A stretch of DNA of 64,000 bases from positions 56,251 to 120,250 of the forward strand of contig ONPU01000014.1 of assembly GCA_900319795.1 (NCBI GenBank), read 5' to 3'. The notes below the pieces were generated by a model. That model was not told the DNA's origin. It made no database searches and saw only the letters and a program-made list of their open reading frames with translations. Within the stretch, counting starts at the first letter, position 1. Each line of letters begins with the position of its first letter. The stretch is from an uncultured Eubacteriales bacterium (GTDB lineage: Bacteria; Bacillota; Clostridia; Lachnospirales; Lachnospiraceae). Positions 31,937 to 40,913 of the stretch are shown piece after piece. A program made the translations under genes and the position numbers.

Positions 31937-33003
31937 ATGAAAAGAACGCTCCGGCAAGAAGCCGCACAAGAGAAATCCGCATCGGAGACCGTGTCATCGG
32001 CGGCGGAAACCCGATCGCGATTCAATCGATGACCAATACGAAAACTGCCGATGTGGAAGCCACGGTGAACCAGATTCTGAAGCTGGAAGCAGCCGGCTGC
32101 GAGATCATCCGCTGCACGGTTCCGAATCAGGAATCCGCCGACGCGCTTCGTGAAATCAAAAAGAGAATTCATATTCCGCTCGTGGCGGATATTCATTTTG
32201 ACTACCGCATGGCGATCGAAGCCATCCGGAACGGAGCTGATAAAATCCGGATCAATCCGGGCAATATCGGCGGGACAGAAAGGATCCGGGCGGTCGTCGA
32301 CGCTGCCAGGGAGAGAGACGTCCCTATCCGTGTGGGGGTGAATTCGGGCTCTCTGGAAAAAAGCCTTCTCGAAAAATACGGACACGTGACGGCGGAGGCT
32401 CTGGTGGAGAGCGCCCTTGACAAAGTCCGCCTGATTGAAGAGACGGGCTATGACCGGATCGTGATCAGCATCAAATCTTCAGACGTCATGATGAGCGTAA
32501 AAGCTCATGAACTGATCTCGGAAAAGACGGACTATCCTCTTCATGTCGGCATTACCGAAGCGGGGACGCTCTTTTCGGGAAATATCAAATCCGCCATCGG
32601 ACTCGGTCTCATTCTGGACAAGGGGATCGGCGATACGATCCGCGTGTCTTTGACGGGAGATCCCGTGGAAGAGATCCGGACCGCCAGACTGATTTTAAAG
32701 ACGCTCGGGCTTCGGCAGGGCGGGATCGAAGTGGTATCCTGTCCTACCTGCGGACGTACGGAGATCGACCTGATCGGCCTGGCCAACAAAGTGGAGCAGA
32801 TGGTTGAGGACATTCCTCTCAACCTGAAAGTTGCCGTAATGGGCTGTGTTGTAAACGGCCCCGGAGAGGCAAGGGAGGCTGACATCGGAATCGCCGGAGG
32901 GAAAAAAGAAGGCCTCCTCATGAAACATGGCGAAATTATCGCAAAGGTCCCGGAAGACGAGCTCCTCGGGGCCCTCAGGAAGGAACTGGAAAACTGGTCA
33001 TGA
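31933..33003 (+). CDS. ispG: 4-hydroxy-3-methylbut-2-enyl diphosphate synthase
   Basis: This 356-residue iron-sulfur enzyme catalyses the penultimate MEP-pathway step of isoprenoid synthesis. The N-terminal barrel begins RTREIRIGDRVIGGGNPIAIQSMT. The 4Fe-4S ligands are in SCPTCGRT and MGCVVNGPGEA, which also gives the fourth ligand Glu. It is linked by 4-base ATGA overlaps to folA before it and polC after it. Other MEP genes usually near ispG (dxr, rseP, uppS) are absent from this window. Confidence 0.95.
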   Translation: MNEKNAPARSRTREIRIGDRVIGGGNPIAIQSMTNTKTADVEATVNQILKLEAAGCEIIRCTVPNQESADALREIKKRIHIPLVADIHFDYRMAIEAIRNGADKIRINPGNIGGTERIRAVVDAARERDVPIRVGVNSGSLEKSLLEKYGHVTAEALVESALDKVRLIEETGYDRIVISIKSSDVMMSVKAHELISEKTDYPLHVGITEAGTLFSGNIKSAIGLGLILDKGIGDTIRVSLTGDPVEEIRTARLILKTLGLRQGGIEVVSCPTCGRTEIDLIGLANKVEQMVEDIPLNLKVAVMGCVVNGPGEAREADIGIAGGKKEGLLMKHGEIIAKVPEDELLGALRKELENWS

Positions 33004-36000
33004 GCTCTCTGCCGATGCCTTTTCTTAAGGCATTTCCGAAACTGAACATCGATGAATCTCTTATGGATCTGATGAGATTCGTAACCGTAGAAAGGGTGAT
33101 TTTCAATCAGTCCAGATCCAGACTGCGCATTTATATACTGTCTGAAAACTGGCTTAAGAGAAAGAATGTGGAGCTGCTTGAATCGAAGATCGCAGCTCTG
33201 TTTCCTGAGCGCAAAACCGAAGTGCGGATCGTCGAACGCTATCATCTTTCCGCTTCCTATACCCCTGTTTCGTTCTATAAAGCTTATAAAAGCAGCATGC
33301 TCTTTGAGCTGAAAAAAGCGGACCCGCTGATCAGGCAGGTCTTTTTAAGCGCGGAGATCGAATTTAAGGACGGGGAGCTGATCTGCCGTATTCCGGAGAG
33401 CATTATCAGTAAAAGGCTGGAGCCGCGTCTTATTGAGTATCTCGAAAAGGTCTTCGCGGAACGGGCAGGATTCAGCAATCTTCAGATCAGGGGCGAGTTT
33501 GTCGCTCCGGCGAAGAATGAGCTGGAAACTTCGGAAGAGGAGAAGATTCTCGCCAGAGTGCGTGCCATTTCCCAAAAAGAAGCTCCGAAGGAGGTGGAAG
33601 AAGCCCCCAAGAAGCTGCCTGTAAAGGAAGAGAAGCATTACAGGAAAAAAGCGGAGCTCAACAAAGACAAAACGCTGATTTACGGACGCGGTTTCGATTC
33701 CGAAGCGGAAGACATGGCACTTCTTGGCGATGACCCGCGTACGGTGACGGTATGGGGAGAAATCTTCTCGACGGAGATCCGGGAGACCAAGAGCGGCCGG
33801 AGAATTATGACGGTTGCGCTCACCGATTATACAGACTCCGTCAGAATGAAGCTCTGGTTCGATGAGGAAGAAGAGGAGGAGTATACCTCCGTATTCCGTA
33901 AGGGAGAGTGTTTTCTCGTAAACGGCCTTCTCGATTTCGACCCGTTTGACCGGGAAATGATGCTCAAAAGCGTCTACGGAATCAAGAAAGCCGCGAAGCA
34001 GAGAAACGAACGAATCGATACGGCTGAAGTCAAGAGAGTGGAACTCCACTGCCATACGCAGATGTCGGATATGGACGCGGTATCGTCCGCGACGGCGCTC
34101 ATCAAGAGGGCGCATGGTTTCGGCATGAAGGCGCTGGCCATTACGGACCACGGGGTCGTCCAGGCATTTCCCGAGGCGAATAAAGCCCTCGGAGGAAAGG
34201 GCGGCATTCCGAAAGACGCGGATTTCAAGGTCCTGTACGGATGTGAGGCCTATCTTGTCGATGATATGAAAGAGGCCGTCAAGGGCAGAACAGACCGCTC
34301 GATTGAGGATCCATACCTGATCCTTACTTTGGTGACGACGGGTCAGAGCCCTCTGAAACACGATATCCTGGAGATCGCTGCCTTGAAGTATGAGGGCGGA
34401 CAGATTACGGGGCGCTTCGAAAAACTGATCAATCCGGGCCGGCCCATTCCGTTTGCCATCCAGAGTGTTTGCGGGATTACGGACGAGATGGTTCTGGAAA
34501 AGGGCGAAGCAAGGGAGGATGTGCTCCGGGACTTTTTCGAGTTTGCGGGAAATGCGGTTCCTGTTCTCTACGAAGCCGAATCGGAACTGAATTTCCTTAT
34601 GGACGCCGCTGGAAAATGCGGTCTCAAAGTCCCCTGGACTTCGTCGGTGGATGTACAGGCCGTCGTGAGAAGCCTGGAGCCGCAGGTGGGTAAGATTCAG
34701 TTTAAAAGCCTTCTCCGGCATTTCAAGCTGCCGGTTACGGAAGAGCTGCGCGCGATGCCGAGGGCAGAGGCGCTTTCCGGCATTTACGGCGAACTGCTGA
34801 AAAGAATGAGAGAAGAGGGAATCCGGAATTTCTCCGAATTGAACGAAAAGGGCCGGCTGTCCGAAGAACGGATCCGGAACCTTCGCTATTATCATGCCAT
34901 TATTCTTGTGAAAAATGAAACCGGAAGGCGCAACCTGTACACACTGGTTTCCGAATCACATCTGCACTATTTCAACAGGAGACCGCGTATCCCGAGGAGT
35001 CTTCTCAATAAATACCGGGACGGCCTTATCCTGGGGAGCGCCTGCTCCGCGGGAGAACTGTATCAGGCCGTTTTAGGAGGCGCGTCGGAGCCGGAAATAG
35101 CAGGCATAGTCAATTACTACGACTATCTGGAGATCCAGCCCGCGGCGAACAATTTCTATATGCTGCGGGATCCGAAATACGGAATTGCTTCCGAAGCGGA
35201 TCTTCAGGATATCAACAGGATGATCGTCCGTTACGGAGAACAGTTTGACAAGCCTGTCTGCGCGACCTGTGACGTGCACTTTATGAATCCTGAGGACGCC
35301 ATTTACCGTACGATCATACAGTCGGGCAACCACTATGACGCTTCGGAGTCGGAAAACCAGCCTCCGCTGTTCCTTCGGACAACGGATGAGATGCTGAAGG
35401 AGTTCGAGTATCTCGGCGAGAAAAAGGCCTATGAGGTCGTTGTGGAAAATACAAACCTCATCGCGGACCGGATTGAGAAAATCTCACCGATCTATCCGGA
35501 CAAATGTCCTCCTTCCATTCCGAACTCGGAGGAGGACCTTCACGATATCTGCTATGAGACAGCACATTCGCTTTACGGGGATCCGCTGCCGGAGATTGTC
35601 AAATCCCGGCTGGACAGGGAGCTGAACTCCATTATCAGCAACGGCTACGCCGTCATGTATATTATTGCCCAGAAACTGGTGGACAAATCCAACGAGGACG
35701 GGTATCTGGTCGGTTCCCGGGGATCCGTCGGATCTTCGTTCGCGGCAACCATGGCCCGTATAACGGAAGTGAATCCGCTTCCGCCTCACTACAGGTGTCC
35801 CGAGTGTCTCTACAGTGATTTTGACTCCGAAGAACCGCAGAAGGCTCACGAAGAGGGACGGTGCGGCTGTGACATGCCGGACCGGATCTGTCCGCGCTGC
35901 GGCACAAAGCTGATTAAGGACGGTTTTGACATTCCGTTTGAGACGTTCCTCGGGTTTGAAGGAAATAAAGAGCCGGATATCGACCTGAATTTTTCAGGCG

Positions 36001-37400
36001 ACGAGCAGGGTGTCGCTCAGGCTTACACCGAAGTGATCTTCGGCAAGGGGCAGACATTTAAGGCGGGAACAATCGGTACGGTGGCCGACAAGACCGCGAT
36101 CGGGTACGCGCTCGGTTATTTTGAAGAAAAAGGAGTCACGAAAAAACGCTGTGAACTGGAGCGTCTCGCTTCCGGCTGCGTCGGTGTCAGGAGAACAACC
36201 GGGCAGCATCCCGGAGGTGTTATCGTTTTGCCGAAAGGGATGGATATCAACTGGTTCACACCGGTACAGCACCCGGCCAACGATGTCAACTCGCCCATCA
36301 TTACCACGCATTTTGACTACCATTCCATCGATCAGAACCTTCTGAAGCTGGATATCCTCGGGCACGATGATCCGACGATCATCCGTATGCTGGGAGACCT
36401 GACGGGAACGGATCCGAAGAAGGTGCCGCTTGATGACAAAGGAGTGCTCTCGCTGTTCTCCGGAACTGAGGCACTGGGAGTGACGGCTGAGGATCTGGAT
36501 GGCTGTGACAGAGGAACGCTCGGCGTGCCCGAATTCGGAACCAATTTTGTTATGGGCATGCTGAGAGACACGAATCCGTCCACATTTTCAGAACTGATCC
36601 GCATTTCTGGCCTTTCGCACGGCACGAATGTCTGGCTCGACAACGCGCAGTTCTACATCCGGAACGGGGACTGTACGCTTGGCAGCGCGATCTGTACGAG
36701 AGACGATATCATGCTGAACCTGATCAATCAGGGTGTGGAGCCGGAACATTCCTTTAAGATCATGGAATCCGTGAGAAAGGGAAAAGGCCTCACAGCGGAT
36801 CAGGAGGCGGAGATGAGGAGCCATGGGGTTCCCGACTGGTATATCGAATCCTGCAAGAAGATCAAATACATGTTCCCTAAGGCTCACGCGGCGGCTTACG
36901 TCATGAACGCGTTCCGGATCGCCTATTACAAAATCAATTATCCGCTTGCCTATTACGCGGCGATGTTCTCGATCCGCATCAAGACATTCAACTATGAGCG
37001 GATGTGCCTCGGGAGAGAGCGGCTGGAGTTTTTCGCCGATCAGATCCGGTCGAAACCGGAGCCCAGCGAGAAGGAAAAGGCGGAGCTGGATGATATGAAA
37101 CTGGTGCGGGAAATGTATGCCAGAGGCTTTGAGTTCTGTCCGATCGACCTGTACCGGGCGTCGGCGCTGAAATGCCGGATCGAAGACGGAAAGATCATGC
37201 CGTCATTCGCGTCCATCACCGGGATGGGAGATACGCAGGCTCTTTCCGTGGAGGCGGCCGCGAAGAAGGGGCCGTTCCTGTCGAAAGATGATTTCAGGGA
37301 CCGGACCAAAGTGTCGAAAACCATTGCGGATCTGATGGCGGAGCTGGGGATCCTTAAGGATATCCCGGAGAGTAATCAGTTCTCGCTCTTCGATTTGTAA
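33000..37400 (+). CDS. polC: DNA polymerase III alpha subunit, PolC type, with degenerate exonuclease domain
   Basis: This 1466-residue replicase has the Gram-positive PolC order. An N-terminal region and OB fold (about 235-335) come first. The PHP domain starts at LHCHTQMSD and resumes after the exonuclease insert (about 437-610). The palm (PDIDLNFSG) with a CPEC/CPRC zinc module, fingers (KAHAAAYV) and a C-terminal region follow. The embedded 3'-5' exonuclease fold aligns throughout with Bacillus PolC, but the DEDDh residues read Thr443, Val445, Glu529, Leu583 and Arg588. Proofreading by this domain should be lost. PHP metal residues (HxH, TDHG, GCE, DVH) look intact. The start overlaps ispG by 4 bases. 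Confidence 0.95.
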   Translation: MSSLPMPFLKAFPKLNIDESLMDLMRFVTVERVIFNQSRSRLRIYILSENWLKRKNVELLESKIAALFPERKTEVRIVERYHLSASYTPVSFYKAYKSSMLFELKKADPLIRQVFLSAEIEFKDGELICRIPESIISKRLEPRLIEYLEKVFAERAGFSNLQIRGEFVAPAKNELETSEEEKILARVRAISQKEAPKEVEEAPKKLPVKEEKHYRKKAELNKDKTLIYGRGFDSEAEDMALLGDDPRTVTVWGEIFSTEIRETKSGRRIMTVALTDYTDSVRMKLWFDEEEEEEYTSVFRKGECFLVNGLLDFDPFDREMMLKSVYGIKKAAKQRNERIDTAEVKRVELHCHTQMSDMDAVSSATALIKRAHGFGMKALAITDHGVVQAFPEANKALGGKGGIPKDADFKVLYGCEAYLVDDMKEAVKGRTDRSIEDPYLILTLVTTGQSPLKHDILEIAALKYEGGQITGRFEKLINPGRPIPFAIQSVCGITDEMVLEKGEAREDVLRDFFEFAGNAVPVLYEAESELNFLMDAAGKCGLKVPWTSSVDVQAVVRSLEPQVGKIQFKSLLRHFKLPVTEELRAMPRAEALSGIYGELLKRMREEGIRNFSELNEKGRLSEERIRNLRYYHAIILVKNETGRRNLYTLVSESHLHYFNRRPRIPRSLLNKYRDGLILGSACSAGELYQAVLGGASEPEIAGIVNYYDYLEIQPAANNFYMLRDPKYGIASEADLQDINRMIVRYGEQFDKPVCATCDVHFMNPEDAIYRTIIQSGNHYDASESENQPPLFLRTTDEMLKEFEYLGEKKAYEVVVENTNLIADRIEKISPIYPDKCPPSIPNSEEDLHDICYETAHSLYGDPLPEIVKSRLDRELNSIISNGYAVMYIIAQKLVDKSNEDGYLVGSRGSVGSSFAATMARITEVNPLPPHYRCPECLYSDFDSEEPQKAHEEGRCGCDMPDRICPRCGTKLIKDGFDIPFETFLGFEGNKEPDIDLNFSGDEQGVAQAYTEVIFGKGQTFKAGTIGTVADKTAIGYALGYFEEKGVTKKRCELERLASGCVGVRRTTGQHPGGVIVLPKGMDINWFTPVQHPANDVNSPIITTHFDYHSIDQNLLKLDILGHDDPTIIRMLGDLTGTDPKKVPLDDKGVLSLFSGTEALGVTAEDLDGCDRGTLGVPEFGTNFVMGMLRDTNPSTFSELIRISGLSHGTNVWLDNAQFYIRNGDCTLGSAICTRDDIMLNLINQGVEPEHSFKIMESVRKGKGLTADQEAEMRSHGVPDWYIESCKKIKYMFPKAHAAAYVMNAFRIAYYKINYPLAYYAAMFSIRIKTFNYERMCLGRERLEFFADQIRSKPEPSEKEKAELDDMKLVREMYARGFEFCPIDLYRASALKCRIEDGKIMPSFASITGMGDTQALSVEAAAKKGPFLSKDDFRDRTKVSKTIADLMAELGILKDIPESNQFSLFDL

Positions 37401-37465: not shown

Positions 37466-37610
37466 GTATAATCAATTCAGACATCTGCACAAGTGATTAG
37501 TACTTCTTAGCTCGTCAGAAATTGTGTTGGACGAAAAAATCACACTGTCTGAGCGAAGCGAGTTTGGGATTTTTTCGGATTATACAATTATCGCAGAGAA
37601 CATTTCCGGT
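37441..37610. repeat. Intergenic inverted-repeat element, copy 2
   Basis: This is the second copy of the element at 18821-18989. A perfect 15-bp inverted repeat (37459-37473 with 37578-37592) bounds a core that is identical over about 50 bases and nearly so for the rest. Relative to copy 1 the left arm has C to A and A to T changes, and the right arm has the matching G to T and T to A changes. It fills the 267-base gap between polC and the DUF5717 gene. The remainder of the gap (37611-37667) holds nothing else I recognise. Confidence 0.85.
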
Positions 37611-37667
37611 GTTATAGTCAAAACGTTAAGCGCTTCAATCAGGCACACTTTCTTTGTGAGGGATATT

Positions 37668-40600
37668 ATGCTGAAGATCAGGAACAATCAATCAAAGGCC
37701 GTTGAGGATCCGAATCCGCTGATGACTTCCTATGGCGAGCTTCGGAACCTGGGTGATTTTGCGTTCTATGCTTCCGAAGAGAGCACGGAAGCGGCAAGGC
37801 TCTTTCGGAGTAAGGACTTCCGGCGCCTTCTTCCGGAAAATGACAAGGTTCTGTCCGCTCTTTGGAAAGGACTTACAAAACCGCCTTCGGGGAAGCTGCA
37901 GATGGAAGAATTTCTCACAGCTGCAGGTCTTAAGGAAGCAGTGAAGCTCAGTCTGGACGAGGAGGGTGCCTCTTATCAGGAAATTACGGATTCCCAGGGT
38001 GAGCGCTTTGCGGTGAGGCGAAGTGCCAAAGGCTGTGTGCAGTTTACTGTAAGAAGCGATTCCGACTTTATCATTCTGGGAAAAACGACATATACCGAAG
38101 ACGATTTTACGGGCAGCATCTGTGATGTGGAATACGGTCTCGATGTATCGAAGATGGGACGTACCGAAAGACGCGGAGTAATCACCGTCAGCAGCCTTAC
38201 GGGAGAACTGAAGTATTCGGTGAGAGCCAGCCTCAAATCGGGAATCCGTTCGTCTCATTCCGATCAGAACCGCTTTGGCAGAGATCTGTTAAAAAGCAGA
38301 CTGATGTATGTACTCGGCAGAACGGATAAGAGTCTCTATGTTCTGGAGTCCCTGAATCTGATCAGTGAACGGTATGAGATGAGCACCGGTAAGCTGGGCC
38401 TTTACAGACTCTATCAGGCATATCTGGAGGAGCTGAGGGGAAACAGAAAGGACGCGCTCGCGATCCTGAGAGAGTTCAGGGAAGAACGTTTCACGGAAGA
38501 GGAGTATGAAGAGCGCGCTGCCTGGCTTTACTTAAGCGGCCTTCTCGGCATTCGGAAAGAGACGGCGAAAGAGACAGCTGAGGAGATTCGGGACCTGTAT
38601 CTGAGGCATGACGACAGCTATCTGATGATGAAGCTGCTGTTCCTCACCAATCCGGATATCGGCCACTATCCCGGAAGAAAACGGGTTTTTGAACGGAGAC
38701 TGTACGAAGGCGGCTGCCGTAGCCCTCTGCTCTACGCGGAGGTTCTGAAGGATCTGCAGGACGCGGATGAGCTTCTGGATGAACTCACACCGCTGAATCT
38801 GCAGGTGCTCTCATTCGCGACCCGGTACGGGCTCATGAACCGTGTCCTGACCCTGAGAACGGCCTATCTGTCAGACCATGTGAAGCGCTATTCCCCGCTT
38901 CTGTTCAGGGTCCTGTCCAAGGCCTATTCCACCTGGCCTTTAGACGGCATACTGGAAGCCATGATCCGGCTTCTGATGAAAGGGGATCCGGCCGACACAA
39001 GGAATTTCCGCTGGTATGAGAGGGCAGTGAAACGGAATATCCGGGTGATCCGCCTTTATGAGTACTATATCGAAACAATGCCTCAGGGAAGAAATGACAT
39101 CCTGCCGGCTTCCGTGAGAAAATATTTCCTGTATAACAGCACGCTGTCCGAAGCCGGAACCGCAAGAGTGTACGCGAATATCGTACGCCACCGCGAAGAG
39201 GATCCGGATACTTTTGAAGCCTACAGGGAGCGCGTCGAGAATTTCGCGTATTCCGGACTCAGAAAGGGGATTGTGACCGCGGATCACGCGATTTTATACC
39301 AGGAACTGATCGGGCATATTCCGGACGACGCGTCGGCGAATACATATGCGCATGCCGCATTTGCGGAGAAAATTACGGTTGGAGACGACCGGTTCCGAAC
39401 CGTCGTGGTCCTTCACGACGAGTTGAGCGAAGAGTCGAAGACAAGGCTTGTAAAAGGCGAGGCCTGCATTTTCCGCTATAACAACAAGGCCCAGATTTTC
39501 TTTGAAAACGCGCAGGGACAGCGTGTCAGCGCGCGCGGGAGAAGCTGGATTTCGGAAGAACTCATGAACCGCAGGCAGGCGCTTCAGAAACTGAAGAAGA
39601 GCGAAATTACGGACGAGGGCCTTCTGCTGATCCGGGCCGAAGAGGCGAAAAAGAAGAAGGATGCCCGCTCACGGGGCTTGTTTTTGAGACTGATCGAGGA
39701 TCCGCGGTTTACGGAGGAGTACAGACTCGATACCGCACGCTGTCTCCTTGAAATGTGGAGCGAGGACTCCATACCGCCTCTGTTTGCGGGGGGAGAACCG
39801 GAAAAGCGAACGGAGTTCTTTTTCCGTGCCGATCCCGGCCTGACCGTACGTGCGCTGGCCGAGGAAGGACTTTACCAAAGGGCGTTTGAGCTGATTCAGA
39901 CTTACGGAAGCGAGGGCGTTCCCAAAGAACTGATGGTCCGGATTGCCGGACGTCTCGCGGATGACGCGGGAGAGAGCGAGGACGAGGAACTGACCGCCTT
40001 CGCGATGGGGATTGTAAGAAGCGGGATCTCAGAAGAGAGGATCCTCAAATATCTTGTCCGCCACTTTAAGGGCAGCATGGATGACATGAGGCTCCTTAGA
40101 CGGGAAGCAGCCGCGTTTTACGTGGACACCTGGCTTCTGGATGACAGAATTCTGATGAGGCTTGTATCAGGCGGGCAGGACATTCCGGAAAGCACTGAGA
40201 TCTTAAAGAGCTATGTGAAGAGGGGCGGCCGCAGAGGCCTGATCCGTTCGTTCCTGAAGATGAAAGCAAGGAAGCTGTGCGCGGAAGAGGAGGAAACGGA
40301 TCCGTTCCTTGTGACGATGTATATGGAGGCTGAAGAGGAAGGGGACGATACCGACCTTGCCATGAAACTCGTTCTCTTAAGAGCGCTGTCTTCAAAAGAA
40401 AGCCTGAACACCTATGAGACGGAGATCGCGGAAAAGCTGATGGAGGAATGTGCTTCGGAAGATATTTTCCTGCCGTTTATGAAAAAGCTTCCGCATAAGA
40501 TTACGGCCAGATGGCGCATTTCCGATAAAACCTTTATCACGGTGAAGGCCGATGAAAAAGACAGTGTGACCGTCCGGTACCATTTCCTGAAAAACGGAAT

Positions 40601-40913
40601 CAGCGGACCGGTCAAAAGCGAAAGTATGAAACATGTTTTCGGCGGACTCTTTGTCAGAGGCTTCACACTGCTTTACGGGGAAGAACTGTATTATCAGGCG
40701 GAAATCCGGCATGGCGGAACGGAAACGGTTGAGGCCAAACAGCATATCTTATCGGATTCCGAATGGGAAAGAGGTACGGACGGATTTAAACGCCTGAACC
40801 GGATGCTGAAAGCCCGGGAAGAGGGAGAGAGCGAGAGCCTCAAAGAGGAACTGAAGGACTACATGCGCTCACGTTATGTGGCGGAGGCGCTCTTTCCGGC
40901 GGGATCATTTTGA
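37668..40913 (+). CDS. DUF5717 family giant helical-repeat protein
   Basis: This cytosolic protein of about 1081 residues has no signal peptide or membrane helix. Residues 90-200 are beta-rich. Residues 200 to about 560 and beyond are built of helix pairs resembling TPR or alpha-solenoid units (LYRLYQAYLEELRGNRKDALAILREF and similar). The last 150 residues return to beta strands (DSVTVRYHFLKNG, ELYYQAEIRHGG). The ATG at 37668 follows GAGGGA; the frame is open upstream through the repeat element, which is not coding. It heads a three-gene unit with an Hsp70-like and a TPR-like protein. I know no experimentally defined function; a scaffold or client-binding role is inference. Confidence 0.82.
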   Translation: MLKIRNNQSKAVEDPNPLMTSYGELRNLGDFAFYASEESTEAARLFRSKDFRRLLPENDKVLSALWKGLTKPPSGKLQMEEFLTAAGLKEAVKLSLDEEGASYQEITDSQGERFAVRRSAKGCVQFTVRSDSDFIILGKTTYTEDDFTGSICDVEYGLDVSKMGRTERRGVITVSSLTGELKYSVRASLKSGIRSSHSDQNRFGRDLLKSRLMYVLGRTDKSLYVLESLNLISERYEMSTGKLGLYRLYQAYLEELRGNRKDALAILREFREERFTEEEYEERAAWLYLSGLLGIRKETAKETAEEIRDLYLRHDDSYLMMKLLFLTNPDIGHYPGRKRVFERRLYEGGCRSPLLYAEVLKDLQDADELLDELTPLNLQVLSFATRYGLMNRVLTLRTAYLSDHVKRYSPLLFRVLSKAYSTWPLDGILEAMIRLLMKGDPADTRNFRWYERAVKRNIRVIRLYEYYIETMPQGRNDILPASVRKYFLYNSTLSEAGTARVYANIVRHREEDPDTFEAYRERVENFAYSGLRKGIVTADHAILYQELIGHIPDDASANTYAHAAFAEKITVGDDRFRTVVVLHDELSEESKTRLVKGEACIFRYNNKAQIFFENAQGQRVSARGRSWISEELMNRRQALQKLKKSEITDEGLLLIRAEEAKKKKDARSRGLFLRLIEDPRFTEEYRLDTARCLLEMWSEDSIPPLFAGGEPEKRTEFFFRADPGLTVRALAEEGLYQRAFELIQTYGSEGVPKELMVRIAGRLADDAGESEDEELTAFAMGIVRSGISEERILKYLVRHFKGSMDDMRLLRREAAAFYVDTWLLDDRILMRLVSGGQDIPESTEILKSYVKRGGRRGLIRSFLKMKARKLCAEEEETDPFLVTMYMEAEEEGDDTDLAMKLVLLRALSSKESLNTYETEIAEKLMEECASEDIFLPFMKKLPHKITARWRISDKTFITVKADEKDSVTVRYHFLKNGISGPVKSESMKHVFGGLFVRGFTLLYGEELYYQAEIRHGGTETVEAKQHILSDSEWERGTDGFKRLNRMLKAREEGESESLKEELKDYMRSRYVAEALFPAGSF

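Follow-up and report, generated by a model that had tools for sequence, protein, structure and literature searches.

The window analysed here is a stretch of 64,000 nucleotides from contig ONPU01000014.1 of an uncultured Eubacteriales bacterium (assembly GCA_900319795.1), whose genome is represented by 2.0 Mb in 23 contigs at 82% completeness. The polC gene, encoding the PolC-type alpha subunit of DNA polymerase III, occupies positions 33000-37400 (+) of the window and is open over 1466 amino acids. The protein reached 1582 bits against the NCBIfam equivalog PRK00448.1 (cut-off 873), and the Pfam models for PHP, pol3 alpha, finger, NI and HHH_6 were above cut-off, with two of the seven domains, NII and OB, slightly below their own cut-offs; equivalog and domain order are thus those of a PolC-type enzyme. 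The catalytic aspartates of the polymerase were assigned by alignment to D993, D995 and D1118 (35976-36353, +), columns that hold Asp in every one of the 15 rows examined from the clade defined below that have a residue there. At the C-terminus the sequence reads QFSLF (37377-37391, +), which we take to be a motif of the sliding-clamp-binding type. Directly downstream of polC, positions 37524-40913 (+) encode a 1129-amino acid DUF5717 protein of unknown function.

The PHP domain is divided in two by an insert. Its first half (34035-34295, +) carries the ligands H350, H352, D359, H384 and E416, and its second half (34875-35399, +) the ligands H632, C682, D758 and H760, as located by alignment and Pfam; the nine PHP metal ligands are given as HHDHEH[C/H]DH in PMC12926913. 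Between both halves lies a DnaQ-like exonuclease insert (residues 438-612, with borders set by alignment; 34311-34835, +), in which the catalytic set of a DEDDh exonuclease (D, E, D, H and D) is replaced throughout. By alignment, T443 and V445 replace Asp and Glu in the Exo I motif (34326-34334, +), which is read within ILTLVTTG starting at residue 441; E529 replaces Asp in Exo II (34584-34586, +), within YEAESE starting at 524; and L583 and R588 replace His and Asp in Exo III (34746-34763, +), which reads LRAMPR from 583. The preliminary description of this DNA had claimed these same five replacements within an uninterrupted frame, and both claims were confirmed. All 21 outgroup PolCs carry D, E, D, H and D in these columns.

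Around the motifs, residues 438-612 align with relatives whose catalytic set is working and with the PolC of Enterococcus faecium (PDB 9qpc), although the Pfam RNase_T model (PF00929) gave no match to the window protein at E <= 0.01. In the phmmer alignment with the E. faecium protein, the counterparts of T443 and V445 are both alanines, in the stretch 'favattg'; according to PMC12592400, that construct carries D431A+E433A, made to inactivate the exonuclease. As judged from its sequence, the window protein is a PolC-type polymerase whose insert lacks the catalytic set of a DEDDh exonuclease.

To look at the fold, an AlphaFold model of residues 340-790 was built from 32 sequences (the window and the named loci), with a mean pLDDT of 79.8. 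Blocks of ten residues ranged between 81 and 97 within the insert and between 34 and 80 in the first PHP half, which is thus of low confidence. Foldseek matched the model to E. faecium PolC with a query TM of 0.84, and the insert to the DnaQ domain 8h18 of S. thermophilus with a target TM of 0.91 and an rmsd of 1.9 A. The insert is therefore predicted to retain the RNase H-like DnaQ fold, with its five catalytic residues replaced.

Distribution of the loss and constraint on the insert

The clade compared here has 37 members: the window, 33 of the 36 other genomes of the same genus (the exonuclease stretch was not readable in G030, G031 and G036) and three named records (L034, L043 and L044), counted by their position in the tree and not by genus label. 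The 34 named loci come from uncultured Lachnospiraceae or Clostridiales, several of them with ruminant-gut isolate names, and one (L046) is Candidatus Equihabitans merdae, placed in Lachnospiraceae by NCBI; 31 of them were taken, on equal scores, as the same records as genus genomes.

A complete DEDDh set was found in none of the 37 readable clade PolCs, and the insert is still in frame. Glu at position 445 was lost in all 36 that cover the stretch and the last Asp (588) in all 37, and the single survivors were D443 in two members, D529 in one and H583 in four. Position 443 holds Q, S, A, T or D, position 445 V, L or T, and position 588 R, Q, L or K, with Arg in 32 of the 37. In the clade members with coverage the insert is kept between the PHP halves, so that these proteins do not belong to the PolCs without Exo insertion. 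The outgroups were 21 of 24 genomes of the same order, G047, G053 and G058 being left out as they gave no full PolC match; RNase_T scores were 125-152 bits for the inserts of the outgroup PolCs and only 31-56 bits for those genus PolCs that matched. Aligning related PolCs, as the preliminary description had proposed, thus revealed a loss common to the whole genus, with the residues intact in the outgroups. As many separate assemblies have the same state, a sequencing or assembly error can be ruled out as its cause, and so can a decay confined to a single species, the residues being lost genus-wide.

The same comparison was extended to a family sample of 299 searched genomes, with exonuclease residues read for roughly 70 genera. 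Among 28 loci from the family search, L159 (from genus member G016) was dead, whereas the remaining 27 loci, from the genera that scored best in the sample apart from this one, were intact in both exonuclease and PHP. A set of 29 family and order loci, four of them from genomes already in the clade or outgroup alignment, had all five residues in 28 cases; the remaining one, L134 (G227), has a single Exo I change from Asp to Tyr, with the PHP and the other motifs intact. In a midpoint-rooted FastTree phylogeny of part of the polymerase core, which leaves out L069, L198, L202, L205, L134 and L132 (short core) and L159, L219 and L155 (duplicate genome or genus), the 36 clade tips formed one group without any foreign tip inside. 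Because the loss is clade-wide, and both the order outgroups and the 27 best-scoring other family genera read are intact, it is placed on the stem of one genus, where a single event accounts for the pattern. One Lachnospiraceae genus of gut and rumen is thus found with a replicase whose in-frame exonuclease insert is, by its residues, apparently catalytically dead. In genus member G023 the polC gene (L049, L069) appears as two frames of 876 and 716 amino acids, split between PHP and polymerase core, which is attributed to a frameshift or an assembly error.

Selection on the insert was estimated by dN/dS (NG86), in which dS was saturated for many pairs, so that individual values are given for the closest ones. 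In the five closest genus pairs the insert showed values of 0.050, 0.084, 0.058, 0.135 and 0.161, with the core at 0.012-0.052. Among 84 genus pairs that had dS < 1.5 for insert, PHP and core alike, median dN/dS was 0.43, 0.17 and 0.14, respectively. The insert is therefore under purifying selection, but of a clearly weaker kind than elsewhere in PolC, and the long-term constraint on it is weak. Divergence rates were calculated without the partial rows L067 and L071. The slope of insert against polymerase core was 3.98 in the genus (561 pairs), and relatives whose insert is working gave 1.92 (near genera) and 1.54 (order outgroups), whereas the slope of the PHP was 1.44, 1.50 and 1.37, respectively; these slopes carry no p-value, as pairs are not independent. 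Insert-to-core divergence in the genus is thus about twice that of intact relatives. Selection on the insert is purifying yet relaxed, and none of that relaxation is seen on the PHP. With the fold kept and no complete DEDDh set in any of the 37 PolCs, the idea of a retained but probably dead domain put forward in the preliminary description is supported.

PHP and exonuclease states across PolC sequences

The PHP ligands, described from the window as still present, were complete in each of the 36 clade PolCs that are fully covered; the 37th, a partial sequence, has the last four. They were also complete in 20 of the 21 same-order outgroups; the exception, L085, has a broken PHP and an intact exonuclease. 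Besides PolC, the C-family polymerase detected in the window's genome is a DnaE1, whose PHP ligands were complete in all 21 cases read (the window's genome and 20 of the 36 relatives).

To place the genus in a broader context, a phylum sample was drawn evenly. It comprised 149 searched genomes, 112 of them with PolC at E <= 1e-60; PolC was read in 109 of the 111 other PolC genomes (G549, a fragment, and G599 were left out), and was truncated in four of the 109. In this sample, 64 PolCs had no insert and kept all PHP ligands, 36 had both sites intact, four had an intact insert and a PHP changed only by Asn at position 8, and one had a dead insert with an intact PHP. The frequency of PolCs without the Exo insert in it (64 of the 105 readable, L218-L326) is far above the 6% given in PMC3919608, where such PolCs came, with one exception, from Clostridia and Negativicutes.

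When the phylum sample was joined by the family and order sequences, 30 of which are loci from 33 genomes picked for low scores and thus not random, both states could be read in 232 PolCs. Both sites were intact in 107; the insert was absent with an intact PHP in 74, and dead with an intact PHP in 38, of which 35 belong to the clade; the PHP was broken in 13, all with an intact exonuclease. Hence, all 112 PolCs that have lost the exonuclease keep the PHP, and none of these 232 PolCs lacks both sites. A targeted search for such double losers in 40 low-scoring or non-matching genomes also gave none: 26 had no PolC match, and the 14 PolC cores comprised eight without insert and with intact PHP, two from the genus of L085 whose PHP was broken but whose insert was intact, and four that were truncated.

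Fisher tests of the association, which ignore kinship and row choice, gave p 0.0019 for the 232 PolCs with the genus counted once and p 0.019 for the phylum sample alone. Parsimony required 18 changes of exonuclease state and nine of PHP state on the tree, and if the nine PHP changes are placed randomly by branch length, the probability that all of them fall on exonuclease-intact branches is about 0.002, as a crude estimate; an independent-pairs sign test had too few informative pairs, and in the Fitch counts gain and loss of the insert are indistinguishable outside the genus. In-place decay of the exonuclease outside the genus was seen in L191, L206 and L303, all with intact PHP, and in L201, whose PHP is partly covered. 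All four inserts are in frame and have lost catalytic residues, and those of L206 and L303 are also shortened, as if en route to deletion.

Two further observations on polymerases were made during these searches. In one family of the order (f5; for example, G063, G076, G137 and G153), 14 of 18 re-searched genomes yielded no hit to the PolC core at E <= 1e-40, the genera searched being g40, g48, g70 and g96; 12 of these 14 are at least 90% complete, and the other four genomes of the 18 have PolC, so that replication in this family possibly proceeds without PolC. Genome G019 encodes an 800-amino acid compact relative of PolC (L094:732-3131, contig C230) with the exonuclease in front of the PHP stretch, not inside it, and without OB or N-terminal Pfam domain. 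Its ten best relatives out of 729 records, at 30-39% identity, come from phages, whose proteins it thus resembles.

Candidate editors of the replicase

The above results are probably best accounted for if the PHP is the remaining proofreader of the main replicase, with the insert kept folded and non-catalytic after an ancestral loss in the genus. According to this scheme, the DEDDh exonuclease inside the PolC PHP would have lost catalysis before the members of this Lachnospiraceae genus diverged, and the dead insert would have remained folded within the replicase. The PHP would then most likely take over proofreading, and DnaE1, whose PHP is likewise intact, may help in trans. We infer that the PHP cuts DNA and edits, a possibility raised in the preliminary description that holds up by the conservation of its ligands and by the fact that no readable PolC has lost both sites.

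Several points count against the PHP as editor. Of the 120 PolCs with a working exonuclease, 107 have all PHP ligands as well, and thus the PHP may be conserved for a different purpose, such as a structural metal site or a pyrophosphatase role of the kind proposed for E. coli DnaE (PMC4822814). The weak long-term constraint on the insert, the low model confidence for the first PHP half and the small number of informative independent pairs also weaken the case. The main published counter-evidence is the negative result of an exonuclease assay on the PHP of Geobacillus kaustophilus PolC (PMC3666897), although one ligand is changed in that protein and its inactivity has been tied to this change (PMC5636811). 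By alignment and by a table in PMC3666897, the changed position is Asn in G. kaustophilus and corresponds to D758 of the window, and every exonuclease-lost PolC counted here as PHP-intact, those of the genus included, has Asp there. The available part of PMC3656037 holds nothing on PHP activity of an exonuclease-deficient PolC.

Proofreading could instead be provided in trans by a stand-alone DEDDh exonuclease. The window's genome does encode a 346-amino acid RNase_T-family protein with visible Exo I and Exo III motifs (C5:81123-81572), KapD-like by its best NCBIfam matches, though these are under their cut-offs, and similar proteins were counted in 29 of the 37 genus genomes by frame length and match span. 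However, of 100 family genomes searched, its own included, 66 contain relatives at E <= 1e-10 and 58 still do so at E <= 1e-55; among these genomes are G256, G257 and G321, whose PolC exonuclease is intact. As it is widespread in the family, even where PolC has a working insert, this protein is apparently no special partner of PolC. Moreover, G016 (98% complete) and G020 (97%) had no RNase_T match outside PolC at E <= 0.001, and DnaQ-like matches above 95 bits appeared in just seven of the 37 genus genomes, one of them being the phage-like polymerase of G019. The preliminary description had suggested searching for a DnaQ-like protein or a second DnaE: the KapD-like protein and DnaE1 are indeed present, but no dedicated DnaQ was apparent in the PF00929 search of the window's genome (82% complete), where the KapD-like protein, of a type common in the family, was the lone extra match. 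A dedicated stand-alone DnaQ was therefore rejected within the scope of PF00929, and editing in trans by such an exonuclease seems improbable.

It also appears unlikely that the lineage simply tolerates less proofreading and leans on mismatch repair and base selection. As this would require, 33 of the 37 genus genomes have MutS matches at E <= 1e-80 and 33 have MutL matches above cut-off, the window's genome being counted in both, and their presence also led to the rejection of mismatch repair loss as a cause. Yet, if editing were dispensable, the PHP ligands should sometimes decay after exonuclease loss, and all 36 fully covered clade PolCs keep them; the PHP-to-polymerase rate is unchanged in the genus, and no readable PolC lacks both sites. 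Finally, it is hardly credible that the insert still cuts DNA through a rearranged active site. The purifying selection on it in close pairs and the Arg that 32 of 37 members have at position 588 could be read in this way, but there is no acidic set common to the clade at positions 443, 445 and 588, and the double change D431A+E433A alone serves as exonuclease-null in E. faecium PolC (PMC12592400).

As for its retention, the insert may now brace the PHP or hold single-stranded DNA such as the primer end, because the exonuclease-null insert in the E. faecium structures still holds a three-nucleotide single-stranded DNA (PMC12592400). The metal pocket, now empty, may be occupied by the Arg at position 588. 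PolC most likely has two editing sites, of which one is sufficient. As described in PMC7694242, the DnaQ type is the newcomer, which replaced the PHP in at least three events; in this genus the newcomer would be dead and the ancestral PHP site left. Our inclination, by a little, is towards a more general reading, in which the two PolC proofreading sites are redundant and lineages keep either but never neither, the genus having returned to the ancestral PHP zinc site as sole editor, with the dead DnaQ domain as a scaffold or DNA-holding module.

The PolC that was assayed for PHP editing with a negative result had one ligand changed (PMC3666897, PMC5636811). A clade with a naturally dead DnaQ site and a complete PHP makes such editing by PolC directly testable: if the above reading is true, the PolC of this genus would be a natural separation-of-function enzyme, allowing PHP editing to be measured free of the DnaQ background. 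The reciprocal pattern over 232 PolCs, in turn, constitutes comparative evidence for a functional PHP.

Relation to known polymerases

No description of a naturally dead but retained PolC exonuclease was found among the titles and opening lines of abstracts of the open-licence literature. A PHP proofreader is known in DnaE1 of Mycobacterium tuberculosis, which has the same nine metal ligands as the window PolC; its activity has been demonstrated (PMC5636811), whereas for the PolC of the genus the likeness is one of ligand conservation. Compared to the canonical PolC of E. faecium (PDB 9qpc), the window protein has the same domain order, the same insertion point in the PHP and the same insert fold, but all five residues of the DEDDh insert are replaced while the PHP is complete. 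PolCs lacking the Exo insertion are likewise without a DEDDh site and have intact PHP ligands in 74 of 74 rows; in contrast to these, the genus keeps the domain instead of deleting it.

The retention of a DnaQ-like proofreading domain without catalysis has parallels in Pol I (PolA1 and PolA2) and PolB2, for which inactivated 3'-5' exonuclease domains are described in a 2026 survey (PMC12926913), although these enzymes, unlike PolC here, are not the main replicase. The same survey states that Pol III alpha inactivates the PHP and not DnaQ, and the genus described here, with predicted loss of catalysis in the DnaQ-like insert and a complete PHP, is an apparent exception to this generalisation.
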